DNA from: Paralichthys olivaceus
Taxonomy: Eukaryota > Chordata > Actinopteri > Pleuronectiformes > Paralichthyidae
Length of the DNA stretch: 64,000 bases
NCBI RefSeq assembly: GCF_024713975.1
Contig: NC_091097.1
Coordinates: forward strand, 4,624,361 to 4,688,360
Direction of reading: 5' to 3'
Part shown: piece after piece, positions 1 to 64,000 of the stretch
How the letters are laid out: each line of letters opens with the position of its first letter
Numbering within the stretch: the first letter of the stretch is position 1
Made by a program: the position numbers and the translations under genes
Notes under the pieces: generated by a model
What the model was told of the DNA's origin: nothing
The model's database searches: none
The model's input: the letters and a program-made list of their open reading frames with translations, nothing else

Positions 1-1
1 T

Positions 2-487
2 AAAGAAAACACTGCACTGAAAAAGCAGGTTGCAGAAAATGCTGCTCTGGTTGCAGAAAACACTGCACTGAAAGAGCAGGCTGCAGAAAATGCTGCTTTA
101 CCTGCAGAAAACACTGCTCTGGTTGCAGAAAACACTGCTCTGCAAAAGAAGTCCGCAAAGTTTGAGGAGAGAGCTGCAGTGTACAGTATTTTGAATGATT
201 CTAATGCAGCTCTGACTGAAGAAAACACAGCTCTGAGGAAGGAGGCAGCACAAAACACTGCTCTGGCTTCAGAAATCACTGCTCTGGCAGAAGAAAACAC
301 TGCACTGAAAAAGCAGGCTGCAGAAAATCTGACGAAGGAGGCAACACAAAAGGCTGCACAGTTACAGCAGGAAGAACTATGTAGAGAAAGCAGGCTGCAG
401 AAAATGTTGCTCTGGCTGCAGAAAAAACTGCATAGAGATAGCAGGCTGCAGAAAATTCTGCTTTGGCTGCAGAAAAAACTGCAGTAA
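2..487 (+). CDS. Heptad-repeat coiled-coil protein, copy 1 (3' part only)
   Basis: The frame is open from the window edge to a TAA at 485-487, so this is the end of a gene that starts upstream. It encodes about 161 residues. The repeat unit AAENTAL (21 bp, usually with a CTGCAG site) appears first, then a non-repeat block FEERAAVYSIL, more heptads (AALTEENTAL), a QLQQEE linker and a tail with two copies of RLQK(M/I)LLWLQKKL. It matches the end of the second copy at 5236-5721 at an offset of exactly 5234 bp with only about eight differences. One difference gives Cys instead of Arg in the linker before the tail (EELCRE versus EELRRE). The in-frame ATG at 179 is internal and is not the start. 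Function is unknown and I recognise no named family. That this is a real gene is inferred from the intact second copy and its conserved frame. Confidence 0.6.
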   Translation, partial: KENTALKKQVAENAALVAENTALKEQAAENAALPAENTALVAENTALQKKSAKFEERAAVYSILNDSNAALTEENTALRKEAAQNTALASEITALAEENTALKKQAAENLTKEATQKAAQLQQEELCRESRLQKMLLWLQKKLHRDSRLQKILLWLQKKLQ

Positions 488-1016
488 AAAAGCAGTTGTA
501 GTATTTTGATTTTAAAGGTCCAATGTGTAGTATTTAGTGATATCTAGTGGTAAATTATCATGTTGCAGCTGAATACTCACCTCTTTCTATTACCTCTTTC
601 TATACCTTCTCTGTTTCTACTCACAGCAAAATGTTCTTTTTCTCTTCATGCTAATTTATTTTTAATAGCTGAAGATACTTCTTTTAGTTTAAGTCATGGT
701 TTGTGACATATTGAATAAGATATTTTCTGTCTAAACTTCTTATGTTTAATTTAAGTGGAAAAAATGATCCAACACTTGATAAAAATAAAAACATTAGAGC
801 AGAAACATGACTAAGAGAAATGTTGTTTTATTACAAAGTTCATTCAGACAACTGAACACCCTGTCAACTAGTAAAAAATAATTTGAGAAATCATGTAAAT
901 GATGCGCAGACTATGGTGAAGAAGAGATTTCTGAGTCAGAGGACGTGACCAAACGGATTTAAATCTAAAGAGAAACAAATGACACAGTAAAATCAATTAA
1001 AACATTAAATGTGTAT
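488..1016 (+). other. 3' flank / presumed 3' UTR of copy 1
   Basis: AT-rich non-coding sequence shared with the right duplication unit. It begins with a short piece resembling the left end of the fish MITE found at 6241 (AAAGGTCCAATGTGTAG). It carries an AATAAA at 784-789 that could be the polyadenylation signal. Nothing else coding is seen. Confidence 0.5.
784..789 (+). promoter_or_regulatory. Candidate polyadenylation signal AATAAA (copy 1)
   Basis: AATAAA lies about 300 bp after the stop of the coiled-coil gene. The same hexamer is conserved at 6022-6027 after copy 2. AT-rich sequence makes chance matches likely. Confidence 0.35.
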
Positions 1017-1259
1017 TTAAAGGTTCAGTGTGTAGATTTTGTGATATCTTGTGGTGAAGTGTCATGTTGCAGCCGAACACCCCTCACCTCACCCTCCCCT
1101 TCCAAACATTAAAGATAACCTGTTGTAGCCTTCAGTTGTAATAAAAACTCACAAGCTGTTTAGATTGTCTAGTTTAGACGACTGTAAAAAACATGGTGGC
1201 CTCCGTAGAGAGGACACCCCCCGATGTAAATATAAAGTATTGAAATCTACTTTATTTAA
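1017..1259 (+). mobile_element. MITE with AGGTYCAGTGTGTA terminus, truncated copy
   Basis: It starts TTAAAGGTTCAGTGTGTAG and matches the first 240 bp of the complete copy at 6241-6621. The right end is missing: similarity ends at about 1259. It lies inside the duplicated segment, so the insertion predates the duplication. Confidence 0.7.
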
Positions 1260-1436
1260 GCGTCTCAGCGGTAAAATAAAATGTCAGAGCCATGATTTAC
1301 TACGGAGGCTGTGAGACGGACGTTGACCTTATGTGGTTTATAATATACATTTTATATGCTCAACTATTATTATTTCAGTTTCTATATTGGACAACTGTTT
1401 TCAAAGGTGCTTTATGAATAAAGTGATTATATTTAC

Positions 1437-4066
1437 ATGTCAAATTCATGTTGCAGTCAACCCTACATGTCTCTACCAAGCGGCAACATCCCGGGCTGAG
1501 CGCTGAGGCCAATACGGAAGTGCAAATAACTGCAGTTCACTGGGTGGCCACTTGAGGCTGGCTCCAAGAGGGAGTCAATTCCCATTGACTCCCATGTTAA
1601 AAAGCCCGACTTTAGAGCAGAATTAAACCTGTTTACAGCCTGGTTCAAAAAACGGTTTTAGTCTCAATCAGTAAGTTCTTCCTCCATGACAACTCTGGGG
1701 GGGGTGAATTTTTTTCTAACTCGCTCGTTTAGATAATTTAGAGGTTTGAAATTATGAATAATTATCACTTGATTGACACGTGACGTCACCGTTAGCTCGT
1801 CACTCTGGCTGTTAGCCTGTGGTCTGCTCGGCTTCACCTGAGCTAACAGGCTAATCCCCGTCACCGAGCACGAGTCTGTGGAGGAGTTTTCACTCACATG
1901 TGAATATCATCGTCTGTTGTTCGGCTGATGTCCTGACGGAGAAGTGAAGTGGAAGACGTCTGTGCTGCAGTGTCTGTGGTGAGTAAAGTACTGTCTTTGA
2001 TTTACGTGTCAGTAGTGATGAGCAGGTATCATTGTTACCTGGCTGGTTAGCTTAGCTCCGCTAACCTCCAGGCAAGATACCAGCAGTAACGGCGATGCTA
2101 ACGGGAGGGATGGGAGTTATTAACCCGACATGAAGCGTCCACACAGCGGAGAGAGGAGCGTTAGAGTTCATGGTGATAAATCTTTTAAACTGAAGGCGAC
2201 TGTGTGTTTAGTGAATATCATCAAGTTAGATATCTAACGTTATGTAAAGTTGTTCAGCTCGCCAACCCATTTAGCTTGACTACGTTACTGTGAGTAACTT
2301 CAGTAATAATGTTTTATTAGATTATTGTTTCAGAAATAACGTTAGTGCAGCTGCTGCAGTGTGAAACTTATTGAGCTGAACTTTATTTATGAATGAACAG
2401 TTTACCTACCAGGTATAGATAGACCTGTTTTCATAACTTACTAACAATTAAAGCAAATTATTGCACATGATGCATTACATTATATATGCAATACTTTTAA
2501 TGTGAAAGAACTCCATACTGCACATTCATTGTAGTACACTGTTTAATCCCAAACCATATTCAGATACATACTTGAATATCCACAGAATATAAGGACACAG
2601 ACTTTGTTTGAAAGTAACACGTATCTCTGCAATAATGCCATACTTTTATGTTTCCTGTCATTTTATTAGGGACGGAGGAACCTGAGGGACACAGCTGTGC
2701 TGACCGTGTTCTGTCTCTTATGTCAAAAAAGAAAAGACAACACTTTTTATCTAAGGTTTATTAAATCAGAAAGTAAAAGATGAACATTGTTGTGATAGTG
2801 TTAATTTTACCAACCATAATGGATATAGAAATTGACTCAATATTATTATCATGTTGACCAGCCTGAAGCTGCCGATCTCCACCATGTTGCTGCTGCCACA
2901 GTGGATTCTGAGGACATCAGGTGTTGCAGTGCTTCATGAAATGAAAAAAGTCATGTTAAAGGATGTTTTATGCTGAAATCATTGTCACATCTGTAGATAT
3001 TAAGGAACAGAGGAGAAACATGATTATTTACAGATACTGTACAATACAATAATTACAATAATTTTGACACATGTAATATCAGCTGTGTTAAGCAGCCAAG
3101 ACTGGTACTTACAGTTTATTCTGTGTTCAGCAGGTGGAAGCACCACAGATTTCAGCCAAACTGATGTACTAAAAGAAATAAACATTGTATAAATATATAA
3201 AATGTCTTTCTACCACATCTGTAATATTCAAGGGTGATAATCTCTCACAGTGCTGTTGATAACAGTCCACTTCAAGTCCCTCAACTTCTCGCAGTGTTAA
3301 AACAGATATATAATATATATACATATATAATAAATATGAGCACTGTTTACAACAGTGGTGTGTGGAGATTATAATCACATCTAAACTGTTATATAATTAC
3401 ACATCTGCACTGAGTCTAATTCACTGTGAATCCATAACAGGCTAAAAAAAGAGGTTGTAATAGTAATGGCGGTTATACAAGTCTGTATCACATGCAGCTT
3501 ATTAATATTAACTTATTAAAATTACAATCAAATGAAAAAACACAACTCTTTACTAAAGCTAGTTAACTTGCTTCAAACTTCATTAGACGTGTTAAATAAA
3601 CAGTAAATTACCTCAATAACATCAAAAACCACTTGAGGAATGTAAGTATATGTGGTATGATTATAATAATAAATAAATCAATAGGTTTTGATGTTGTAAA
3701 GTTTCAGTGTAACTTACCTCTGTTCGGTTCGATGTTACGACCGCGACCATCCCGGAGCAACAACACCGCAGCGCTAGCCGGTTAGCAGTCGCGGGTAGCA
3801 TTTAGCCTAGCTCCTTAGCCTGAGCTAACCAGGAAACGATAAGCTCTGTGGGCGTGGCTCGGTTGTCAGTCTTCACTCGGCCCGCCTAGCGTCCACTCGG
3901 GCGCCGCCTTTTTGCCCATTTATGGGTTAGCCCGGAACTAGGAGGAGTCAGGCCCCGGCAAGATGGCGCCGGGTGAAACGCCCACTACGAGCCTCATTTT
4001 CACTCTACAGAAACCAACGGGTGACGTCACGGACACTACGTCCATCTTTATATACAGTCTATGGTC
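1437..4066 (+). mobile_element. Large composite fish interspersed element
   Basis: The left part (1437-1800) contains GGTGGCCACTTGAGGCTGG and CAATTCCCATTGACTCCCAT. The right part (about 3760-4066) ends GGTGACGTCACGGACACTAC...TATATACAGTCTATGG. From memory of fish sequence, both are ends of one widespread non-autonomous repeat that is normally well under 1 kb. Here they enclose about 2 kb of other sequence, including GC-rich TTAGC-rich stretches near 1780-2100 and 3720-3900. The latter resemble small promoter-like units with a GTGAGT-type donor near 1978. No ORF longer than about 80 codons lies inside, so no transposase is visible. The element boundaries are approximate. Confidence 0.5.
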
Positions 4067-4189
4067 TCTACACTTTGCAAAGAAACGCAATATCTTTCAA
4101 CTGCTTTTTACAAAAGCACTTCATAGAGTGTGAACTTGTTTCAGTCCAGTTCAGATCAAAGCCAGAACAGATCATAGCCAGTTAACTTC

Positions 4190-4197
4190 TATATAAA
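4190..4197 (+). promoter_or_regulatory. TATA box of coiled-coil gene copy 2
   Basis: TATATAAA followed by GG lies 176 bp upstream of the proposed ATG at 4366. A purine/pyrimidine start context (TCAGCAGAATCAGA) lies about 25-30 bp downstream. Together they make a plausible core promoter that starts a short 5' UTR in front of exon 1. Confidence 0.5.
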
Positions 4198-4365
4198 GGA
4201 GAAACATTTCTCAGCAGAATCAGACTCTACGACCATTAGTAGAAGACAGCTGCATGCGAATCTTCTCTTTGACAACGTCCCTAAACCGCCAAAGACAACT
4301 GTCAGTAGACCAGCGCTTCACGGCAAAAATACTTTGTTACATTGGATCACCTGCGTTTATCCAAC

Positions 4366-5721
4366 ATGAATAAGAATTGCTCTAGAAACAAAGTAAGTTT
4401 TGTTTTCGGCTGTAGAGACTTCAGGTTAAACTGTACTTTTATACCTCATGAAGAAACAATTATCTTTTATTTCTTCATCTTACTTTACAGTAGTTTTGCA
4501 GACTTTAAAAGCAGACATGTGTAAATGACTCAAATGTATTAATAATCTGTCTGAATATATCTGAACTGAGGATGGGACTGTGTTTTTACCTGTTACATGT
4601 ATATTTGTGTCTTTCAGTCAAAGACTCAGCTGACTGCAGAAAACACTGCTCTGTTTGCAGAAAACACTGCACTGAAAGAGCAGGCTGCAGAAAATGCTGC
4701 TCTGGCTGCAGAAAACACTGCTCTGCAAAAGAAGGCTGCAAAGTTTGAAGAGAGAGCTGCAGTGTACAGTATTCTGAGAAGGAAGCTGGATGATAATAAT
4801 GCAGCTCTGACTGAAGAAAACACAGCTCTGAAGAAGGAGATAGCACAAAACACTGCTCTGGCTGCAGAAAGCAATGCTCTGGCTGCAGAAATCACTGATC
4901 TGGCTGCAGAAAACACTGCTCTGGCTGCAGAAAACGCTGCACTGAAAGAGCAGGCTGCAGAAAATGCTGCTGTACCTGCAGAAATCACTGCTCTGGTTGC
5001 AGAAAACACTGCACTGAAAGAGCAGGCTGCAGAAAACGCTGCACTGAAAGAGCAGGCTGCAGAAAATGCTGCTCTACCTGCAGAAATCACTGCTCTGGTT
5101 GCAGAAAATACTGCACTGAAAGAGCAGGCTGCAGAAAGTGCTGCTTTAGCTGCAGAAAACACTGCTCTGGTTGCAGAAAACTCTGCTCTGGCTGCAGACA
5201 ACACTGCTCTGGCTAAAGAAAACACTGCTCTGGCTGCAGAAAACACTGCACTGAAAGAGCAGGCTGCAGAAAATGCTGCTCTGGTTGCAGAAAACACTGC
5301 ACTGAAAGAGCAGGCTGCAGAAAATGCTGCTTTACCTGCAGAAAACACTGCTCTGGTTGCAGAAAACACTGCTCTGCAAAAGAAGTCCGCAAAGTTTGAG
5401 GAGAGAGCTGCAGTGTACAGTATTTTGAATGATTCTAATGCAGCTCTGACTGAGGAAAACACAGCTCTGAGGAAGGAGGCAGCACAAAACACTGCTCTGG
5501 CTTCAGAAATCACTGCTCTGGCAGAAGAAAACACTGCACTGAAAAAGCAGGCTGCAGAAAATCTGACGAAGGAGGCAACACAAAAGGCTGCACAGTTACA
5601 GCAGGAAGAACTACGTAGAGAAAGCAGGCTGCAGAAAATGTTGCTTTGGCTGCAGAAAAAACTGCATAGAGATAGCAGGCTGCAGAAAATTCTGCTATGG
5701 CTGCAGAAAAAACTGCAGTAA
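4366..5721 (+). CDS. Heptad-repeat coiled-coil protein, copy 2 (complete, two exons)
   Basis: The proposed exons are 4366-4392 (MNKNCSRNK, with A at -3 of the ATG and donor AAA|GTAAGT) and 4618-5721 (acceptor TTTGTGTCTTTCAG). Both junctions are phase 0, giving 376 residues. Nearly all of exon 2 is built from a 21-bp unit encoding LAAENTA, interspersed with a 10-residue variant LKEQAAENAA. Two FEERAAVYSIL blocks interrupt the array, and RLQKMLLWLQKKL-type repeats form the C-terminus. The heptad pattern puts Leu at d and Asn at a, which predicts a long alpha-helical, probably dimeric coiled coil. I see no convincing signal peptide or transmembrane segment. No known family is recognised. A TATA box lies just upstream and a near-identical neighbour (copy 1) lies in tandem. 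Exon 1 is inferred from splice signals only. The long open antisense frame is a by-product of the repeat. Confidence is moderate that it is a gene and nil for a specific function. Confidence 0.6.
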
Positions 5722-6483
5722 AAAAGCAGTTGTAGTATTTAGATTTTAAAGGTCCAATGTGTAGTATTTAGTGATATCTAGTGGTAAATTATCATGTTGC
5801 AGCTGAATACTCACCTCTTTCTATTACTCACCTCTTTCTATACCTTCTCTGTTTCTACTCACAGCAAAATGTTATTTTTCTCTTCATGCTAATTTATTTT
5901 TAATAGCTGAAGATACTTCTTTTAGTTTAAGTCATGGTTTGTGACATATTGAATAAGATATTTTCTGTCTAAACTTCTTATGTTTAATTTAAGTGGAAAA
6001 AATGATCCAACACTTGATAAAAATAAAAACATTAGAGCAGAAACATGACTAAGAGAAATTTTGTTTTATTACAAAGTTCATTCAGGAAACTGAACACCCT
6101 GTCAACTAGTAAAAAATCATTTGAGAAATCATGTAAATGATGCGCAGACTACGGTGAAGAAGAGATTTCTGAGTCAGAGGACGTGACCAAACGGATTTAA
6201 ATCTAAAGACAATCAGTCAATTAAAACATTAAATGTGTATTTAAAGGTTCAGTGTGTAGATTTTGTGATATCTCGTGGTGAAGTGTCATGTTGCAGCTGA
6301 ACACCCCTCACCTCACCCTCCCCTTCCGAACATTAAAAATAACCTGTGGTAGCCTTCAGTTGTAATAAAAACTCACAAGCTGTTTAGATTGTCTAGTTTG
6401 GACGACTGTAAAAAACATGGTGGCCTCCGTAGAGAGGACACCCCCCGATGTAAATATAAAGTATTGAAATCTACTTTATTTAA
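5235..6483 (+). repeat. Tandem segmental duplication, right unit
   Basis: This is the partner of 1-1259 at an offset of about 5234 bp. It covers the end of the coiled-coil ORF, its 3' flank and the first part of the MITE. By eye it is roughly 97-98% identical, which suggests a young duplication or recent gene conversion. Confidence 0.85.
6022..6027 (+). promoter_or_regulatory. Candidate polyadenylation signal AATAAA (copy 2)
   Basis: AATAAA lies 300 bp after the stop of copy 2, at the position equivalent to 784-789 after copy 1. Confidence 0.35.
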
Positions 6484-6621
6484 ATATAAAGGGCATTTTT
6501 TGGGGTAAAGAAAACTACAATTCAAACAATTTAGATCAAATGAACTAGTCCAAACATCAAGAGGATTATTCTAGATGCCAATAGATCCCTTTCACCTAAA
6601 TCTTACACACTGGACCTTTAA
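6241..6621 (+). mobile_element. Complete MITE with AGGTYCAGTGTGTA inverted termini
   Basis: The left end TTAAAGGTTCAGTGTGTAG and right end ACACACTGGACCTTTAA are inverted copies. The body of about 380 bp has no ORF. Both ends sit on TTAA, which could be a target-site duplication or part of the terminus. A related copy lies at 21489-21859 and a truncated one at 1017-1259. The family is widespread in fish genomes, as judged from memory. Confidence 0.75.
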
Positions 6622-6714
6622 CAGTAATTACAATAATAAATATAATTTTATAAAAACATTGAATCAAATTTTTAAATTATAATATACATTATCTCAACAA
6701 TTCCCACAATGAAC

Positions 6715-7291
6715 TACGGAGCCCCTAAAGGGACATGGGTTAAAAAAAAAAAAATGAAACGTATCTCGTGCGCACGAGAAAGTATCTCGCGAGCACGTGA
6801 AGGTGTCCCGCGAGCACGAGAAAGTATCCCGTGCGCACGTGAAAGTATCTCGTGCGCACAAGATAGTTTTCTGGTGCGCACGAAAAAGTATCTCGTGAGC
6901 ACGTGAAAGTATTGCATGCCAGGTATATTTCGCGTTTTCAGAAAAGAGAATAAGTCCACTTCTGCAGCCATTCTTTGATGCTAATGATCTTAATGAGCAC
7001 AGGCGTACGGTCAACTACATGTGCTTAACGAGATACTTTTTCGTGCGCACCAGAAAACTATCTCGTGCACACGAGATACTTTCGCGTGCGTACGGGATAC
7101 TTTCATGTGCGCACGGGATACCTTCCCGTGCTCGCAAGATACTTTCTCGTGCACACGCGATACTTTCATATGCGCACGGGATACCTTCCCGTGCTCGCGA
7201 GATACTTTCTCGTGCTCGCGACATACTTTCTTGTGCGCACGAGATACGTTTCTTTTTTTTTTTTTCTCCCATGTCCCTTTAGGGGCTCCGT
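6715..7291. mobile_element. Fold-back element with inverted arrays of 21-bp repeats
   Basis: The ends TACGGAGCCCCTAAAGGGAC and its reverse complement flank A-tract and T-tract runs. Inside each are arrays of a 21-bp unit (consensus GAAAGTATCTCGTGCGCAC plus GW), about seven in the left arm and eight or more in the right arm in opposite orientation. A unique centre of about 110 bp (roughly 6910-7020) separates the arms. The direct repeat AATGAAC at 6708-6714 and 7292-7298 flanks the element exactly and is a probable 7-bp target-site duplication (8 bp with one mismatch). All ORFs in the arms run across the repeat and encode no transposase, so this is non-autonomous. Confidence 0.8.
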
Positions 7292-7498
7292 AATGAACAG
7301 CTCTGACGACTGAAATGAAATAAAAAACACTACTCATGAACTGGAAGAAAGAACCAATACTGACTGAGGTAGTAGTGTGGTAGGTTCGCTGAGTGATATT
7401 TGACAAACGGTTTTCAACTCAACGTCAACTTACTAGCTTGTGTGCACAACTCAACAGATGGAGATTACTCACTTCAGGATTTCTGCAGGTTTCAAACA

Positions 7499-21488: not shown

Positions 21489-21859
21489 TTAAAGTGATAG
21501 TGTGTAGAATTTAGTGATATCTAGTGTTGAAGTTGCATGTTGCAGCTGAACACCCCTCACCTCACACCTCATCTTCCAAACATGAAAAAGAAGCTGTGGT
21601 AGCTTCAGTTGTCATGAAAAACTCAAAAGGTGTTTAGTTTGTTCAGTCTGGACTAATGTACAAAACATGGCGGCCTCTGTAGAGAGGACCCCCTTGATGT
21701 AAAAAGTATTTAAATATAAAGGGTCTTTCTGGGGTAAAGAAAACTGCAATTCAGACAATTTAGATGAAACAAACTAGTGAAAACATCATGAGGATTATTC
21801 TACATTAAATTTCTGCCAATAGTTCCCTTTCACCTAAATCTTACACACTGGACCTTGAA
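21489..21859 (+). mobile_element. MITE, AGGTYCAGTGTGTA family, diverged full-length copy
   Basis: It starts TTAAAGTGATAGTGTGTAG and ends ACACACTGGACCTTGAA. The interior is collinear with the copy at 6241-6621 (for example CCGTTTAGT-type and TTTCACCTAAATCTTACAC segments). More substitutions than the copies at 1-6.6 kb indicate an older insertion. Confidence 0.75.
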
Positions 21860-26660: not shown

Positions 26661-28352
26661 AATGACTTCCAGTTTGGTCCATGTCCCATCTGCTAACGTG
26701 GAGATGTTCCATCTTAAGTACAGACTTTCGTACTGTATTTGGAACTGCTGTAATTTTTATTATTTCATGTAAAAGATGAAGCTTCTGGTGAGAGGAACGT
26801 CCATTACATGAGTAAACCAGCAGTAAGTGAGAGAGTGTGTGGAGTAAAGAGTCCCAAATACAAAATAACAGAAGAAGCACACGGAAAAGTAAACAGAAAT
26901 CCTTTCAAGCAAGACCTCGGTTGACTCCTTTTCATTTTTCTCTGGCGAATGTTAAGGTTCAAATGACAGAATCAGAGGTCTTTTTTAATATATCAGAGGA
27001 TTTACTGATATTTACAGGATGTCAAATTTTACAGATGGTTTCAAGGCGTTATTAAAGTTTATAATAGCAGAAGCTATACAATGATACTTTATGCCCAGCC
27101 TGGGGAGAACAAACTTCTAATTTGTGTATCATCACTGCACATTGTCACACTGATGAAGCTGTTTTCCAGCTGTGGAAGGTGTAGTGCACTGGTTGTGTAT
27201 GGACAGCAGGGAGTGCTAAAGTCAAACACCTTACTTTTCTTCCCCAAGAACATGTGAAAATCCCTGCGGAGATTGTGTGCTGGGTGGAGATTGCCAGAAA
27301 AAGTTTGCGTGTGAGTGAGTGAGAGAGAGTGTGTGTGTTTGATAAAGTTCTCATAGCAGAGATATGAGACGTGCACTGGTCTCAGCAGTCCAAAACACTC
27401 CCGCAAATCTTGCTGACAGTGGACGACGGGCATATAGAGTTAATATGAGAAAGCTAATGAATATGAATGAGGTAAATGAAAGCTGATGAATGTTATCCCT
27501 TATCTCCATAAAGATTAGACAATTCCCTTGAACCTCTGCCAAGGACATACACAATAAAGAACAAATTTGAAGAGCTTGTCTAGCAATTTGATGGACGTTG
27601 ATAAGGTTACATCACAACGCAGTGATATATAATAATATCTGGATAAGAACAGTGAGTGTGATCTGAGCTGGAACACAGAGGAGGCTGCGGTTAATTTATA
27701 ATAGAATGTCCATCGTCATGGCCACTGCTAAAAGAAAAAAATCTATGTAGATTTTAAAGGATCTTTTAACAATATCCTGGGGCTAATATAAACATTAAAG
27801 TTATTAAAATGAATATGACTATTAGGGTCTTTTCTCCCCAAGAGACTACTGGTGGCTGACGAAAAGATATATATTCTCATTTTCCTCTTCATTTTCCTGG
27901 TGTCAGATCAATCATGCACCATCCCAACTCAAGGTGAAACCCATCAAAGTGTCATTTCCCCCATTGTCAGTTATTCACAAAAAACACACAGACAGGCAGG
28001 CAGACTAACAGAAAGAAAGCATCAACAAGCGAGTTGGGGGGAAACAAACAGCCGTGATGCCCAGGGAGATTAATCTGTTTTACTGGCAATCCTCAAGAGC
28101 AAAACGGGGAAAATTCACTGTGAACACAACTCCCAGCCGTAAAATCGGCTCATAAACACCACTGGGCTGCACGCACTAAAGTGCTGAGATAAAGCCCGTC
28201 CAATCTAAGAGATAAGATAAATTGTTGAAACTTTGCTCAGAACATGTTGCCTAGAGAAACCCCAGGTGAGAAGCCAAGAGGAGGATCTTCATGAAAACTC
28301 AAGCTGGAGGACAGAAGAGTCAGTCAAGATCTGTGAAGTGACAGTGTTCGCC
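26661..28352. other. Upstream flank of enpp7
   Basis: No gene was seen. The sequence just before enpp7 holds paired GATA motifs and the presumed 5' UTR. The transcription start cannot be placed and no clear TATA box is at an appropriate distance. Confidence 0.4.
28210..28220 (+). promoter_or_regulatory. Paired GATA motifs upstream of enpp7
   Basis: AGATAAGATAA, two overlapping GATAA sites, lies about 135 bp upstream of the enpp7 ATG. Mammalian ENPP7 is expressed in intestine and liver-biliary tissue, where GATA4/6 act, so the site is plausible. This is motif-level evidence only. Confidence 0.3.
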
Positions 28353-31300
28353 ATGATGTGGACGGCAAGTTTCTGCCTCCTGTGGGCTCTGTCCGCCCTC
28401 GGTGCTCCGGCAAACAAACAGAGACAGAGAATGCTGCTGATCTCTTTCGACGGTTTCCGGTGGGATTACGACCGCGATGTAGACACGCCGAACCTTGACC
28501 AAATGGCCATGGATGGAGTCAAGGCCCTGTATGTCACACCTCCGTACATCACCATCACCAGTCCTACACACTTCACCCTTTTGACAGGTAAAGAGTTTCA
28601 TTTTCTACAACAGTGCTCCCAATAGGCAGGGGATCTGCATATCATGACAGAATAGGAAACCGCTCTGAGTTTACTTTGCGAGGACAGAAAAAAGCCATGG
28701 GTAAAGGGAATTAGTTGTAATTGAATGTCCCAGAGTCCAACAGCTTTTATAGCTGAGTAAGATGATTATGCTTGGATGACTGAGGGAAGAATTCTCTGCT
28801 CCCTTTCTTATTTTGACTCTCAAATCATCAGTGCCAGCTAAAAGAAATTTAACTTCCTTGAAATTAAATTCCTATAATCTCCGAAGTTGGTCGTAAGACC
28901 TTGTCCAAAAGCGTCATGCCACTCAGCCTGTTAAGTTGATAGAATTCTTAATGTGAATGTGCCACGCTATGAATAATGAGTGCAAGCCGACTGACAGTGA
29001 TTCTCCACTCTAGGCCGCTACGTTGAGAATCACGGGGTAATCCACAACATGTGGTTCAACACAAGCACCTCGGAGAAGAAGCCCTACTATCAGACTCAGT
29101 TTGTGAATGAGTGGTGGGACAATGGCTCTCTGCCGATCTGGATCACAGCGCAGAAACAGGTGTGTGCAGCACAATTTCCATCTTATCTCTAAGAAACCAT
29201 TTCGTCTGACAAAATGACTGGAAAATCCTGCTGAATGATTTCTGATAGATCACCACAGTTAAGCTGCTTTCAGACATGCAACGAGGTCCGGACGTTTTCC
29301 TGAAAGTTTACAGAGGGGCTGTGTGTCAAAATGTCAGCCAGTTGCTCCAGACATTTTTCCGGAGCTTTTCCTGCCAGCCCCCTGGTAAAAAGTCAGAGTG
29401 AGCGAGTGAGCATGTTGATGGGGTTTCTGACAGAATAAATATATCTCAGAGCCATACGACGCAGATAAAGTCAACAACTTGGAAAGAAAATGTCCAGCAT
29501 GCTCTACCATGCCACCCCTCACCTCACATTTTCCTGTTGTTGTGAACACATTTGACCCAAACAATCTCTTACTCGTTTTCTAGACAGAGTTCATGTTTGA
29601 AAATTACTGAAGACTGCAAAGTATTTCACAGACAAATGGTAAACCTTATGCAAATGGGTACAGCTGTAAAGTTCAGTTATAGGTTTCAGAAAATCCATGA
29701 AAATATACTACTTAGATTTCCTTGCAGATTGAAGCACGAGTGATGTTAATGTGTTTTCTCTCCTCACTCTCAAGGGCCTAAAAGCTGGCTCTCTTCACTT
29801 TCCTGGCACAGCTTCTAGTTACCAGGGACAAGTTGCTATGGTGCGGGAAGTGGAGCCACTGCTTTACAACTACAAGAACGAGACAGCGTGGAAAGAGAAT
29901 ACAAACAAGGTGATGGGCTGGTTCAGAGACCAGGACCTGGACTTTGTGTCCATGTACTTTGGTGAGCCAGACGGCACAGGCCACAGATACGGCCCAGACT
30001 CCCCAGAGCGCAGGAAGATGGTCAAGCAAGTTGACAGAACTGTGGGCTACATTCGCCAATCAGCTGAACAACACGGCTTGACCAGCAGTCTCAACATCAT
30101 CATCACGTCGGACCACGGCATGAGCAACGTGTACCGCAATGGTCTGGTGAAAGAGATCACCCTGTCCACCATTCCGGACTTCTCCTTCAGAGACCTGTCG
30201 TTTCACTTGGTGGATTTCGGGCCCTCTGGGATGCTGCTGCCAAAGCCGGGCAAGTTGGAGAAGGTTTACAGAGCTTTAAAGGACGCCCATCCACACCTTC
30301 ATGTTTACAAGAAGGAGGATATGCCAGAGCACCTCCACTTCGCCAAAAGTGATCGAATCCTTCCCATCATTTTATGGGCCGATCCTGGATACGTGATCAA
30401 TGGGGTGAGAGGACAGATAAAATCATCTTTTCTTTTCACCTCGTGCTTGTTAAAGAATGTGGATGTTACAGAGATGAGTTAAGAATAATTGATGCTGCCT
30501 TTATGTACAAAACAAATATGTGTGTTTCAAACTTATTTCCATGCGGCCTTTACGTTGGCATTGTGAAGCAAAACAACCACTAGAGGCCAGCGCAGACAGT
30601 TTCTGAGAACAGACATGTTGACGCTGGGGCAGCTTGTGATAATATAGCTCTTTAGAAACAGTTATAACAGCAGCATTGTAAACAAATGATGACGTGGGCA
30701 ATTCATTCTTTGTTGAAATGTCTTTCTAATGCCCTATGATTGTCTTGCTTAAACTTTTGGCTACGGTGCCCCCACATGATTTCCTGTGGTACTGTTCCGT
30801 TTCATCTGTTTTATCCAAACCAACAATCTTTCAGAAGACAATCACAAATATAGAGAAAATGAACGCAGAGTATGGACAGAAGGGTCTGTCTGTTTGATGT
30901 TGAGAATAACTAAGCCTTTACATTGAATTAAGAAACTGTTATATAACTGTTTGGGGCTGCAACAGTGATCAGACTTAAACTGCTTTTAGACATGCTCTTC
31001 ACTCTGCAGGTCCTCCCGATTTTTTTCAACAGGGACTGTATGTGGGAACGCACATGTCCGAGTGAGTGTCTTAGTTTCTGCAGACTTTCAGCGACTGGCC
31101 CCCTCGTATAGAGTCCGCAGAAAGTCTGCAGAAGTCGATGTGAGAAAAAAGCAGCTGCTGTACACTTTAAAAGTTAATGTTAAGTTCGGTTGTGATTTGT
31201 GCCCAACAACATTCTAAGTTACAAAGTGCAACAAAATGTTACATTACAGTGAATCGACAGACAGAAAGCTGCTACAACATTTTCACATGATGCTGTATCT

Positions 31301-34300
31301 GTATTCGTCATTTATTAACAAGCAAATTAACAGTCATGTCAATTATGACCTACTTAACTGGTTATAGGGGCATTAAATGGCCGGCACTGATAAACTAAAT
31401 CAGATAAACTGCCAAGGAAATGATATGAACATCCCGTCTGGTTAATCTAGAAATACCCTTAAGTTTTCACAATAGAAATACTAAAATTAACAGCTGTGTT
31501 TTCCTTGTAGAAATTGGTTAAACTGGACTCTTTCTAACTGGAAACAAGGCGTTAAATTCTAATCTTAGTACATTGTAATTTTAATCAAGTGAATTTGCAC
31601 GTCCTTGGGATAATCCAGGCCAGGCTGATGACATGCAGCGCTCTCAAATGCTTCATGAAGCTATTCACGCCTCGAAATTCAAAATTAGCATTTTCATTTT
31701 GGCTCCACTCTCACTCACTCAACTTTGCAGCTGCATGTGTCCGTCAGTACTGAGAAACATCAAATCATAACTTCATTTACAGGGTGAATTACTGAAATCA
31801 TAAAACGTCTTCATATGCTGACGACGAGGAAAATAATCAGTCCTCTGAATCTTCTGATGAAGTGGGTCATCAGTCTTTTGACCGACCACAGACACCACTG
31901 CATTATCGGACTCTTTGTCCTCCCTCTTTATGGTTCCTTAAACTCCTTTTAGTTTGATCCCAGGGAAGGATACGCGTGGTTAGAGCCTTACATAACAGCA
32001 CAGATAACAGGGTCTTCTACATAGTGCTATTTATATCCCATTTATTTCCATTAAGCTTAACTTATAGAACAAAACGATCAAAGAAATGTATGTATGTTAT
32101 GTAAATGGGAATTTTAGAGAAGGGTTCAGATTCTCAGTCAGCCACTTTCATCCGTAACAAAGAAAAGTCAGGGCGCCATTCTACAGTATGGAAACGGCTC
32201 TTTCACTTAAGAGTGAGCCAATAGCTCCCTCTGCTGTCTACATTGGAGCACAGGCCAAGATGTGTGAACTCCAATGCATGATCTCCTTCTACTAAAATCG
32301 CTGGCTGAAGAGTAGCCGTCTAATTTAATCTTTATGGGTTGAATGAGTTGTTTCACTGTCCCCATGTGTCCCTGCAGTATTTCCCGGTTCAGTTCCACAA
32401 GGGTGAGCACGGCTTTGACAACCAAGTGATGGACATGAAGCCTTTCTTCAGGGCAGTGGGTCCGGCGTTTCACAAGAACCTGGTGGTGGGACCTTTCGAG
32501 ACGGTGAACATCTACCCTCTGATGTGTCACATCCTGGGCATCGAGCCGGAGGTCAACGACGGCCACCTGAATGCCACCAAACACATGCTGGTTACGAGCG
32601 CCGCTTCTCAGGGTGAGTTTGTATCAGACTAATGAGCCTCCCCCCGTGGCCTCAAAAGTGTGTCACTCCAACACCTGCTCCTTCATTACTGGGCCATTCA
32701 TCCATCATTTCCAACATTACGTACAGTAAGTCCATATCAGAGGTAGAGCTACTGCAGGTTTAGACTAAAAGAATAGATCCAGACCAGAAAGATTCAGAAA
32801 GGAGGACGAAAACTAAGATCTGTCTGCTGCTGAGCAAAGGTTTCACCAAGTTGAATTGAGACTTTTCAGGATCATGATGAATACAGATCTATGTCAAGGA
32901 CAACAGATATGACAGAATAATAACTGAAGATAAGGTGAGGTAGTCGAGTAGAGATTAACCATGGAAACACCAAGTTATCTCTCAAAAGAAAGACAGAGAC
33001 AGTGGGTGTCCACAGCCGATTGTACTGAGATTAGTTTTGACCGGGTGTTTGTAGACAATCATTAATCAGCTCCACATGAGTCATGTCTGTAGTTTTATTA
33101 CAGCGTGCTGTGTGGCTGAGAGAGAACTCTGACACAGAGCCATTACAAGGCAATCAACTGTCTATATTCTTTATTATCAGTATATTTATTTGTTGTTCTT
33201 GTATGGGGGTTTTATTTTTTGTTAAGTATGAAGAGCTGTTGGTTTTGTCGCAGTAAAACTTTGCTTTGCGGCTGTTTTTTCCTGCCATGTCACATTTTAA
33301 TGATTGAAACCTTTAACATTAACTATGCATGCACTCGACACATTTCTCTTGGAAAAAATATATATTTTAAATTGTGAAGAAAGTAGTGAATATTAGCATG
33401 ACAGTATGTAACATCTTAACGTACTGACGACACTGAAAAGGGTAAAATTAAGATCATTAACTTGTAGAACATGCTATCTGAAAAACGTGAATGTCTTGCA
33501 TTGGTGCTAGCATATTGTTATATTTTCTTTTTTATTGTTATTTTTAAGATTTTATACCCGTTGATCAGGCATTGGCACAAAACAACTACTTGGTAAAGTT
33601 CAGTATAATTACACACAAAGTACAAACATGGAAGATGTGGTGGCTGATATTTTCACCCAGGACAGCTGGGAAAAAATGAAGCCACAAAGTCAAAAGGGAA
33701 AATATGAAGTAACAAGAGTCAGACCAGTGACATATTTGCCCTTTTGTCTTCATTATTATTTTCTCAATGTTTTGTTCAGTTGCAGAAAGCCCATGGGATC
33801 AGTCCAATTTAGGAGATAGAAATGTGTCTCTACCATCTGAACAACAAATCACATTATGATATTTTACATACGAATCAACTTAACATGTACTCGTCCTTGA
33901 ACATGGCCACCACCACAGCTCCATCTAATGACAAGTGTCTGTTTTAAAATAGTTGAAGGAAAACGATTTTGTATATTTATCAATAAAACCCACGATAAGA
34001 CAAAAACCAATAATGTGTTAGTTCATCTCTCAGTATTTTCTTTTCTACCCAATACATGAGACGCAGTCGAAACCCTACTGAAAACAAACATCTTTAAAAC
34101 TCTTTATAACTCATCAATGGCTACAGCAAACTTTACGCAGTCAGGAGGAAATATTGAATATATATTGGGGACTTTTTTCAGCAGAGCATTAATACACTTT
34201 TGGTGCTATAGTGAGTATTTGGGACAGTCAAAACAACCAACAGCATCTTTAAATGATGTAGATCTATGGCACAGAGGCATTTAATACACATACAACATGT

Positions 34301-40400: not shown

Positions 40401-41821
40401 GTGAGTACAATTTAAAGCTTTAACAATTTAAAATTGTTCCTCTTTGAGTGATCAGTACACGGTAACTAAAGTCATTTTTTTTGATTTAGGACAATGTGCC
40501 TGAAGCTGCAAAATCAAGCAGCTCTTCATCTGGCTCATCGTCGTCATCCTCCGATTCCTCATCCTCCTGCTCGTCCTCTTCGTCCTCCTCAGACGACGAC
40601 GATGAAGACGGCAGCGTCAAGCCAGCAACCCAGAGTGTGAGAACACGAGACCATCATCCCGTCCCGCAGAAGAAGGCACAGATCGTTGTGGCAAAACAGG
40701 AGCCGCCGAAGAAACGAAGCAGGAAACCTCTGCCCCCTGACCCGAAGGAGTTTCAGCAGAGCAAAGGTGCTCGCAAAATCCTGAAGTTATCAAAAGATAC
40801 AGATCTACCAGGAGCAATCAAAAAGCCTGTTCACCCAGCAAGCTTCACCTTCATGGGTTTCCATCGGAACTCTGGTAGGGATACACTGGGTGGTCCGAAC
40901 AGGGGCTCTCTGACCCAGGGAGGGGCTGTTAAAAACTCCATGAGCTCTGTGGGATCCGGAAAATCAGTTCAACCTGCCTCCCTCTCTCTGAACAAATCCA
41001 GCCAGAGCAGGAACCTCACTGAGGGCAAACTGTCAATCTCCAGCATGAGCAGCGGGGCGAGTCTGGATTTGAACACAGCTGCTGGTAAATCTAAAGGGGT
41101 GGCAGCGTTGAATTTGAATACATCCAAACACCCCATTCAAGGCACCACTCAGCACACACTGAGCTCCCCCAATGGACAAAAGAAAGCCCAGGGCCCCGCG
41201 TCAGCACTGCAGCGGTTACCCAACACCAGAGCAGTCGCTTCTGTACCAGCTAAGAACGCCTCCTCCAATCAAGGTTCTGGCCTTCAGCCGCTCAACCTTC
41301 AGAACAAACCAGTGCAAAGCAATAATAGTCCTGGGAATGGTGCCACACCAGCGTCAGGCCTGAGAAATGCAACCAACCCAGCAAGGAAAGCTACTGTCAC
41401 ACAAAACCAGGACTACAATCCTCCCAAGAGTCCAGCAACCCCGGGGAGACTGCAGACCAGAAAGAACCAGCCAGGAGCAGAGAAAGTCAAGGAGGCGACT
41501 GAAATCCAGTCCTCTAGAGTCCAAGGCAGGCTGGAGAAGAGCAGCGTGCACAAATCCTCCGCAGAGGTCCAGAGCCAACAAGAGAGATCGGCCTACAAAG
41601 ACGGCAAGAAAGACATGAGCACGGGCGAAGAGGAGAGCAGCTCAGACTCTGACCAAGATTCTTCCTTCATCGGACAGGATCGCTCCATGAACCAGGACTG
41701 GAAGCCCACACGCAGTCTGATAGAGCATGTGTTTGTCACAGATGTCACCGCTAATCTAGTTACTGTCACAGTGAAGGAGTCACCGACCAGCGTGGGCTTC
41801 TTCAGCATCCGCAACTACTGA
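37491..41821 (+). CDS. cbx2: Chromobox protein 2 (Polycomb repressive complex 1), five exons
   Basis: The exons are 37491-37562, 37656-37699, 39901-39966, 40331-40400 and 40490-41821. All are GT-AG, giving 527 residues (human CBX2 has 532). An N-terminal chromodomain (about residues 9-62) contains QVFDAECIL and VKWRGWS, with aromatic-cage residues F12, W33 and W36 that bind H3K27me3. An AT-hook KRPRGRPRK lies at 74-82. A serine-rich tract with acidic run (about 93-127) is followed by the CBX2-typical HPVPQKKAQ segment. The C-terminus ends with the Cbox (SLIEHVFVTDVTAN...TSVGFF) that binds RING1. The AT-hook and long low-complexity middle identify CBX2 rather than CBX4, 6, 7 or 8. The product compacts and represses chromatin as a PRC1 subunit in the nucleus. 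Intron 1 is only 93 bp and stop-free in frame. enpp7 lies immediately upstream in the same orientation, as in human. Confidence 0.96.
37746..37766 (+). repeat. (CAG)7 in cbx2 intron 2
   Basis: Seven uninterrupted CAG triplets preceded by AACAACAA, 46 bp after the exon 2 donor. Intronic and not translated in the inferred mRNA. Confidence 0.9.
39119..39660 (+). repeat. Degraded interspersed repeat in cbx2 intron 2
   Basis: Begins AGGGCTGTCACAATATCAG, a phrase familiar from fish interspersed elements. The extent is uncertain and no coding remains. Confidence 0.3.
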
Positions 41822-63399: not shown

Positions 63400-64000
63400 T
63401 TAGCTGGAACAGGAGCATTTGCAGTCTGTGATGATGGGGTACTGCACCGGTATCCACGCGCACTTCAGCCCCCCCTTCCTCTGCACGCATCTCCACCTCA
63501 GTATCGTCAGGTGGGTCGAGTTCGCGGGTTTGCACACCATCCCCTCCGGCACCGAGCACGACCTCTTGCTGAGGCAGCTGCCCACGCGCACGAACCGGGG
63601 CCAGAACCTGTTCCCCAGGTCGGTCCAGGTGTAGACCACCGGGCAGAACGAGTACGCCCACAGCCACTGCTGCAGCCGCCGCTTCAGTTTCTTACTCGGC
63701 TTCTGCTTCTTGCCGAACTGTACGTCGAAATCCATCGCTCGGATCTCCTTCGGCAGCACCCCGGTGGGCTTTTGGGCGTCCAAGTCGTCGAGCTCCTCGT
63801 TCCCGGTGTATTTGTCTCCCACGGGCGGCGAAACGGACAGAAAGTGGCTGTCAAAGTCCCCCAGGACGCTCTTCAGCTCGGTCTCGTTCAGGTCCCTCTC
63901 CTTGGGGTCGAAGACGGGGTCCGGGTCCTCTTTTAGTTCCACCAGCGGCAGACTGTCGCTCGGGATGGGGCGGAGGAGGTAGTAGTGCTGACAAACCCCG
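63400..64000 (-). CDS. nog2: Noggin (BMP antagonist), noggin-2-like, partial at 5' end
   Basis: An open minus-strand frame runs from the window edge (first full codon at 63999) to TAA at 63402-63400: 199 residues with no intron, as in all vertebrate noggins. It starts [20 protein letters not shown], the clip segment just after the signal peptide, so only the signal peptide and start lie outside. [17 protein letters not shown] (with an NET sequon) and the basic stretch [18 protein letters not shown] (the heparan-sulphate-binding region in noggins) follow. The C-terminal cystine-knot domain has nine Cys ([30 protein letters not shown]). It is secreted and blocks BMP ligands in embryonic patterning and skeletal development. 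The [11 protein letters not shown] and LKEDPDP wording and lack of the long Gly-rich linker point to the noggin-2 paralogue rather than mammalian-type NOG, from memory. Unlike most family members it ends CSCSS instead of CSC. An overlapping plus-strand 141-codon ORF is a shadow. Confidence 0.93.

Follow-up and report, generated by a model that had tools for sequence, protein, structure and literature searches.

A putative two-exon coiled-coil gene of an amplified family in Paralichthys olivaceus, with a C-terminal tail encoded by its own repeat in a shifted frame

Results

A candidate two-exon coiled-coil gene and its joined signals

The window analyzed in this study is a stretch of 64,000 nucleotides (64 kb) of the genome of Paralichthys olivaceus, located at C5:4624361-4688360. 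Near its left end lie two nearly identical copies of a candidate two-exon gene for a coiled-coil repeat protein, the left copy (C5a) being cut by the window edge and the right copy (C5b) being complete. C5b spans 4077-6483, with its ATG at 4366 and a stop codon that ends at 5721, and the deduced protein has 376 aa. The GTAAGT donor begins at 4393, the TTTCAG acceptor ends at 4617, and the exons are joined in phase 0. The features of C5b are listed below in window coordinates, where clade A denotes the window's kind of gene within the family described later.

4190..4199, plus strand: TATA box TATATAAAGG, seen in the sequence; a TATAAA core stands here in 11 of 11 aligned clade A loci
4221..4365, plus strand: probable 5′ untranslated region (5′UTR), its start placed from the position of the TATA box
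4366..4392, plus strand: coding part of exon 1, MNKNCSRNK, seen in the sequence, with its signals kept in paralogues
4393..4617, plus strand: intron of 225 nt, GTAAGT...TTTCAG, seen in the sequence and in the paralogue alignment
4618..5721, plus strand: exon 2, 367 codons and stop, encoding the coiled-coil repeat core and the C-terminal tail
4735..4872, plus strand: block U, AAKFEERAAVYSILRRKLDDNNAALTEENTALKKEIAQNTALAAES, a conserved break in the heptads with a counterpart in every clade A member compared
5614..5718, plus strand: C-terminal tail, RRESRLQKMLLWLQKKLHRDSRLQKILLWLQKKLQ, encoded by a duplicated 51-nt repeat in a frame shifted by one base
6022..6027, plus strand: AATAAA, seen in the sequence, probably the polyadenylation signal

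This anatomy is directly visible, and it agrees with the model proposed in an earlier sequence-only reading (TATA box, short exon 1, GTAAGT, TTTCAG, and a 367-codon exon 2), the same signals being carried by the paralogues. The window, scanned on both strands, contains 463 acceptor-like sites. Of these, only the site of C5b is preceded by a TATA box and by an ATG whose frame stays open to a GTRAGT donor and also has a joined open frame of at least 300 nt. The three upstream signals were present at 20 of these sites, including that of C5b, and 10 sites passed when the TATA requirement was dropped. The sequence-only reading had also argued from the intact frames of the copies against repeat noise. 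The frames are indeed intact, but the antisense strand of C5b is open as well, over 370 codons, because the 21-nt repeat unit contains no stop in either direction; an open frame alone is therefore weak evidence for a gene, and the joined anatomy of TATA box, ATG, donor, acceptor, and open frame is the stronger evidence. An antisense gene was rejected, as the paralogues favor the plus strand, and so do the signals for start, splicing, and polyadenylation.

A family of two clades in the same genome

The genome searched was the window's own assembly (588 Mb, 25 contigs). A 95-residue query gave 69 matches among the best 150 of 270 candidates, many of them pieces of one gene. For clade A, 11 loci were found, on four chromosomes: two at the window, four at C19:2.865-2.876 Mb, three at C5:8.63 Mb, one on C17, and one on C3. 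Ten of these 11 loci retained a full open frame, at just 71–100% identity to the query, and the eleventh (C5_8.63c) had lost its ATG and donor. A DNA query from 4077-4650 gave 41 matches, which is a lower bound as these came from the best 40 of 617 candidates.

A second group, clade B, has the 5′UTR, exon 1, intron, and splice sites of clade A but a different C-terminus; its exon 2 reads NGCSVTKML...QLCQVKDDLAN...RCRVLEQEASFQEK...FPCWRSS. With a 118-residue query from this C-terminus, 89 matches were obtained (110 of 110 candidates scored), of which 84 showed 79–100% identity and five were remote (42–60%, two of them overlapping on C8). One 2.3-Mb stretch of the window's chromosome, C5 25.04-27.38 Mb, held 72 of the 89 matches: 40 lie in frames of at least 250 codons (in two of these, the matched stretch contains a stop), 29 in frames of 185–200 codons, and three in frames of other lengths. 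Within C5:25.0-27.4 Mb, there are at least five cases in which ∼5.5 kb separates a short frame (∼187 codons) from a full-length one, so the clade B unit amplified on C5 may carry a short gene together with a full one. A protein with a PH domain (Pfam PH, 35 bits) is encoded antisense, just downstream of the clade B gene, in one retrieved locus (L036:5377-5703, minus strand), and a PH motif on the opposite strand occurred at seven of the eight retrieved loci with an intact clade B C-terminus (L034-L040, not L033). The clade B and PH-domain genes therefore appear to have been amplified together as pairs.

The gene signals were then compared across 24 aligned loci of both clades and their relatives. 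The ATG, the GTAAG(T/C) donor, and the acceptor were all kept in 16 of the 24. Two copies, both on C12, have lost the intron and both exon edges to a deletion, and their ATG is still in frame with exon 2; as the deletion takes exon edges and does not follow the exact splice junction, a retroposed origin of these intron-less copies was rejected. Exon 1 could not be aligned in two C11 loci. Between C5b and the clade B copy at C5:25.09 Mb, 23 of 145 bases of the 5′UTR and 47 of 224 bases of the intron differed, and between C5b and C19a, 7 of 225 bases of the intron differed. A FastTree tree of the 5′UTR and intron was built from 21 loci (the 24 aligned loci without C5_25.55, C9_22.3, C12a, C12b, C11_24.4, and C11_1.4, and with three added). 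It grouped clade A with a support of 1.000 and split it from the clade B group with a support of 1.000, placed C9_21.15 and C10_5.14 between the clades, and joined C5a and C5b as sisters.

The family itself and the conservation of its splice sites are thus matters of observation. In our judgment, its members are most likely real genes and not repeat noise, because both clades keep the 5′UTR, ATG, donor, intron, and acceptor and the clade B C-terminal domain looks constrained (see below). The family proposed in the sequence-only reading as unrecognized has been borne out, and its paralogues, with frames intact in 10 of 11 clade A loci of the same genome, provide far stronger evidence than was available to that reading. 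No description of this coiled-coil family was found in the open-licence PMC literature searched by peptide string and by topic, and “undescribed” is used here in that sense only. As expected for a fish gene, none of 9 pattern matches in viral contigs and none of 84 in the general genome contig set was a relative of the gene.

The helical rod and its domain matches

The rod is built from AENTALA heptads and 10-residue AENTALKEQA units. Leucines recur with a period of 3.44 residues, mainly at spacings of 7 and 10, consistent with a slightly overwound coiled coil. An AlphaFold2 model from the single sequence was helical nearly throughout (exon 2 residues 2-132, 144-236, 242-351, and 353-366), with a mean predicted local distance difference test score of 77.8 and a predicted template modelling score (pTM) of 0.25. 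The heptad coiled coil of the sequence-only reading is thus upheld by both the leucine period and the predicted helix.

In Pfam, the window protein matched Shugoshin_N, TSC22, HALZ, and bZIP_1 above the cut-off, and several of these coil models, or bacterial ZapB, passed in four close clade A paralogues. No coil model rose above its cut-off in C17, in C3, or in four clade B or related proteins. We take these hits as cross-matches of generic coil models, because models with no relation to one another, eukaryotic as well as bacterial, hit the same proteins. The Shugoshin_N match scored 49.4 bits in the window protein (cut-off 30), 61.2, 32.6, 31.9, and 44.7 in the four close paralogues, and 17.3 in C17, and neither C3 nor clade B was matched; as unrelated coil models also pass, it reads as a reflection of coil composition. 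Shugoshins carry a C-terminal basic SGO motif, and the Shugoshin C-terminal model was absent among the Pfam matches of the window protein up to an E-value of 1. TSC22 (cut-off 30) scored 38.3 in the window protein and passed in three close paralogues; it was below the cut-off in C5_8.63 (26.1), C3 (17.9), and C17 (29.5) and gave no match in clade B. The TSC-box match is thus inconsistent across paralogues, which speaks against membership in the TSC22 family. The HALZ match covers profile positions 16-41 of 43 and the bZIP_1 match positions 23-59 of 64, and no homeodomain match was found in the window protein up to an E-value of 1; homeobox-leucine zipper and bZIP proteins have a DNA-binding domain (homeodomain or basic region) next to the zipper, which was not found here. 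A phmmer search of PDB gave no match for the window protein or for one clade B protein.

A C-terminal tail from the same repeat in another frame

The tail and KEQAAENAALAAENTA share their coding DNA, the repeat: 41 of 48 bases are identical, and the frame of the tail is displaced by one base. The peptide RLQKMLLWLQ, one of the two blocks that the sequence-only reading put forward as non-repeat probes, is accordingly the 51-nt repeat in another frame, and that claim was abandoned. Translated in the repeat's own frame, the C5b tail DNA would still give KQAAENVALAAEKTA. Within the tail, this frame contains stops in nine of the ten intact clade A members and none in C3, and the shifted frame is used to the end of the protein in all ten. 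The clade A tail arose by out-of-frame reading of the family's own repeat.

The shift changes the chemistry of the protein: the tail has a net charge of +9 over 35 residues, and the core −23 over 341. The tail is basic, amphipathic, and rich in leucine, contains tryptophan, and has the highest hydrophobic moment of the protein (0.583). Among C5a, C5b, C19a, and C5_8.63 (six pairs), 0 to 2.3 differences were counted per ∼80 nonsynonymous sites of the tail. It is much altered in C17 and C3, the C5b–C17 comparison giving 10.5 nonsynonymous and 3.5 synonymous changes. Clade B does not have the shifted tail; its C-terminus is FSFLFPCWRSS or close variants, preceded by a stretch that is charged and rich in Lys.

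Apparent constraint in clade B

Nonsynonymous (dN) and synonymous (dS) divergence per site were compared in eight clade B members, giving 28 pairs. In the C-terminal domain (∼84 codons), dN was lower than dS in 21 pairs, higher in six, and tied in one, and all six pairs with dN > dS involve C1_10.2 or C9_6.09. For C5_27.2, C12a, C16_18.8, and C1_12.8, dN was below dS in six of six pairs, with Fisher p-values, calculated from rounded fractional counts, uncorrected, and from non-independent pairs, of 0.0001, 0.0002, 0.005, 0.036, 0.09, and 0.13. These four members are the most clearly intact and dissimilar ones and were picked after the counts were known. Left out were C5_26.97, whose C-terminal domain is identical to that of C5_27.2, and C1_17.1, C1_10.2, and C9_6.09, in which no exon 1 start motif was found, which is not proof of breakage. 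In a 29-codon N-terminal block of clade B, 22 of 28 pairs had dN < dS and six had dN > dS. Based on these comparisons, the clade B C-terminal domain looks to be under constraint. Among the repeat units within the gene, 24 synonymous and 21 nonsynonymous differences were counted, with ∼31% expected to be synonymous; these counts, from units that are not independent, lean toward constraint.

History of the local pair

The left copy, the insertion between the copies, and a short element in the 3′ flank are located as follows.

2..487, plus strand: 3′ end of exon 2 of C5a; the complete copy extends beyond the window, C5:4623059-4624847
1477..4063, no strand assigned: insertion of 2587 bp between the copies, with an uninterrupted site in paralogues
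6241..6622, no strand assigned: short element with inverted ends in the 3′ flank, with a truncated counterpart at 1017-1259 and a relative at 21489-21856

In the window, C5a comprises 2-487 and its 3′ flank up to 1259, at a coding offset of 5234 to C5b, and the matching blocks of the two copies are 98–99% identical. A recent tandem duplication with copies 5234 bp apart, as the sequence-only reading proposed, is thus supported. That reading had asked for an extension to the left, which revealed C5a as complete, with an open frame of 431 codons, 48 codons longer than that of C5b (383). It had also suggested that a longer array may exist. Larger arrays of the family do exist elsewhere in the genome, but only two copies were found locally; a third copy at this locus was not found, in genome searches that both scored limited numbers of candidates. 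Over 154 aligned codons, six changes separate C5a from C5b, three of them synonymous (dS 0.028) and three nonsynonymous (dN 0.0085). The first 600 bp (window 4077-4676, containing the promoter, 5′UTR, exon 1, and intron) show no difference; further 3′, there are 16 differences in 1196 bases, followed by 14 in 600. An identical 5′ part followed by 1–2% divergence suggests that the 5′ part of the two local copies was homogenized by gene conversion.

The 2587-bp insertion lies ∼125 bp upstream of the TATA box of C5b, and the 8-bp sequence GTCTCTAC on either side of it, at 1469-1476 and 4064-4071, is its target duplication. Paralogue homology to C5b begins at 4064, and seven paralogous sites (the left copy, C19a-d, and C5_8.63a,b) are without the insertion. 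Without it, the local duplication unit would measure ∼2.6 kb. An 8-bp target duplication would fit a hAT element. The elements at 6241-6622, 1017-1259, and 21489-21856 are related and start with TTTAAAGGTTCAGTGTGTAG or a similar sequence, and the differing truncation of those in the 3′ flanks marks the point where the two gene copies cease to match. At 6715-7292 lies an inverted-repeat element whose 40-nt ends are 95% complementary and which contains two arrays of 21-bp units of the GAAAGTATCTCGTGCGCACGA type in opposite orientation. Further to the right are a type I phosphodiesterase gene at 28221-32629, which we take to be ENPP-like, a gene at 40490-41818 for a protein with a CBX family C-terminal motif, and noggin at 63403-63999 on the minus strand.

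Discussion

We propose, with a probability of about 0.5, that the window holds a genuine protein-coding gene of an amplified family, whose product is a self-associating coiled-coil rod anchored by a basic tail. In this proposal, a large fish gene family would have grown by duplication at the DNA level, the window gene being one of two local copies. A TATA promoter would drive a two-exon message, in which a 9-residue exon 1 would be spliced to a long exon 2 encoding an almost wholly helical rod. The protein would self-associate through the rod, the basic amphipathic tail would bind it to a membrane or to an acidic partner, and the whole may act as a tether or scaffold. In clade B, the Lys-rich stretch and FSFLFPCWRSS could do the job of the clade A tail. 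Expression, the coiled-coil partners, membrane binding, and the role of the gene product are what we infer from the gene and its paralogues.

In architecture, the protein is comparable to golgin-like tethers, which are long coiled coils with a C-terminal membrane anchor. Both have a long helical heptad rod and a C-terminal attachment region; they differ in that no sequence relation was found, the Pfam matches of the window protein include no golgin-type domain, and membrane binding of the fish protein is proposed from composition. Frameshifts within tandem repeats have been described in general in a comparison of reference and frameshifted sequences over 50 proteomes (Osmanli et al., 2025, PMC12871928). 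The clade A tail resembles the proteins described there in that a shifted tandem repeat gives a more hydrophobic, possibly membrane-associated stretch. It differs from them in that the fish protein has the shifted and the unshifted repeat in one open frame, in ten family members. Type I fish antifreeze proteins are likewise Ala-rich helical repeat proteins of fish and have >50% Ala and an 11-residue repeat with Thr at position i (PMC3855684). The fish protein described here has 376 aa, 29.6% Ala in the core, and heptad plus 10-residue spacing. Its commonest Thr spacings are 7, 4, 17, 10, 14, and 27, and 11 is not among the eight listed; neither the Ala content nor the Thr spacing fits a type I antifreeze protein.

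Several observations weigh against the proposed gene and its anchored rod. First, the start is lost or changed in four of the 24 aligned loci (ACG, with the donor also lost, in C5_8.63c; GTG in C9_21.15; ATA in C9_22.3; exon 1 lost in C5_25.55). Second, the pTM of 0.25 comes from a model of a single chain, which is silent on oligomers, and the core is polar, with Asn recurring together with Leu, so the coil may be weak. Third, membrane binding by the tail is suggested by its composition (charge +9, moment 0.583), and for the tail in C5b–C17, dN and dS were 0.142 and 0.189 in the used frame and 0.106 and 0.204 in the old frame, so that substitution does not single out the used frame. Fourth, in block U of clade A (46 codons), dN exceeded dS in 10 of 15 pairs, the C5b–C17 pair showing a dN of 0.188 and a dS of 0.048, compared with divergences of 0.066 in the intron and 0.062 in the 5′UTR, and the dN/dS of 0.30 for C5a–C5b is based on only three changes of each kind. 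From these alignments, constraint in clade A is not demonstrated.

Block U can be followed one step further. Its nonsynonymous change exceeded that of the intron and 5′UTR in C5b–C17 (p = 0.0015) and C17–C3 (p = 0.024), and the excess was not significant in C5b–C3 (p = 1.0) or C5b–C19a (p = 0.56). We read this as fast protein change, not as proof of positive selection. Positive selection in clade A was dropped as a firm claim, since dN differed significantly from dS in none of the five pairs tested and the pairs are not independent; a further ground is that block U of C5_8.63 does not lie at the same position. A bolder version of the proposal, in which the coiled-coil family was amplified to ∼100 places, selection kept an out-of-frame, membrane-binding C-terminus that was born in one clade, and the protein sequence of the rod outpaces the intron as in conflict or recognition genes, is one that we hold to be doubtful.

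The alternative that survives best accepts the family as real but takes the product to be a soluble heptad rod, a scaffold or structural filler, in which the shifted last 35 residues are merely tolerated and bind nothing. A tail of this kind would follow automatically once the repeat is read out of frame, and its extensive change in C17 and C3, with substitutions favoring neither frame, is what tolerance would give. It is less easily reconciled with a tail that is open and in the same frame in all ten intact clade A members and that differs so little between the pairs of the four close members (0 to 2.3 of ∼80 nonsynonymous sites). We regard this alternative as rather unlikely, though it deserves serious consideration.

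It is improbable, in our view, that the loci are functionless duplicated remnants or repeat DNA whose frames are open because the 21-nt unit is stop-free and the copies are young. The open antisense frame, the scantness of constraint in clade A, and the copies without a start or exon 1 would all suit such remnants, but the splice sites, ATG, and unique domains have been kept despite divergences between the clades of ∼16% in the 5′UTR and 21% in the intron, and the clade B C-terminal domain shows apparent constraint. That the gene is the cargo of a transposable element, or derived from one, is very improbable: the family is dispersed over many chromosomes and its loci are rich in mobile elements (the 1477-4063 insertion and the short 3′-flank elements), but the intron is retained, the clade A tandem arrays differ in unit size, homology continues beyond the gene in both directions, and the coding frames contain no transposase or retroelement domain, shared ends and target duplications around the units not having been searched for systematically.

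If the window gene is, as we propose, a functional member of an amplified coiled-coil family, it illustrates how large, lineage-specific families built from repeats are easily masked or taken for noise in annotation. The many paralogues of graded age within one genome would allow the amplification, retention, and breakage of a repeat-born gene to be studied. In clade A, one repeat read in two frames yields chemically opposite parts of one protein, an acidic rod and a basic amphipathic tail, and with this tail the general proposal that frameshifts in repeats create new functions becomes directly testable.

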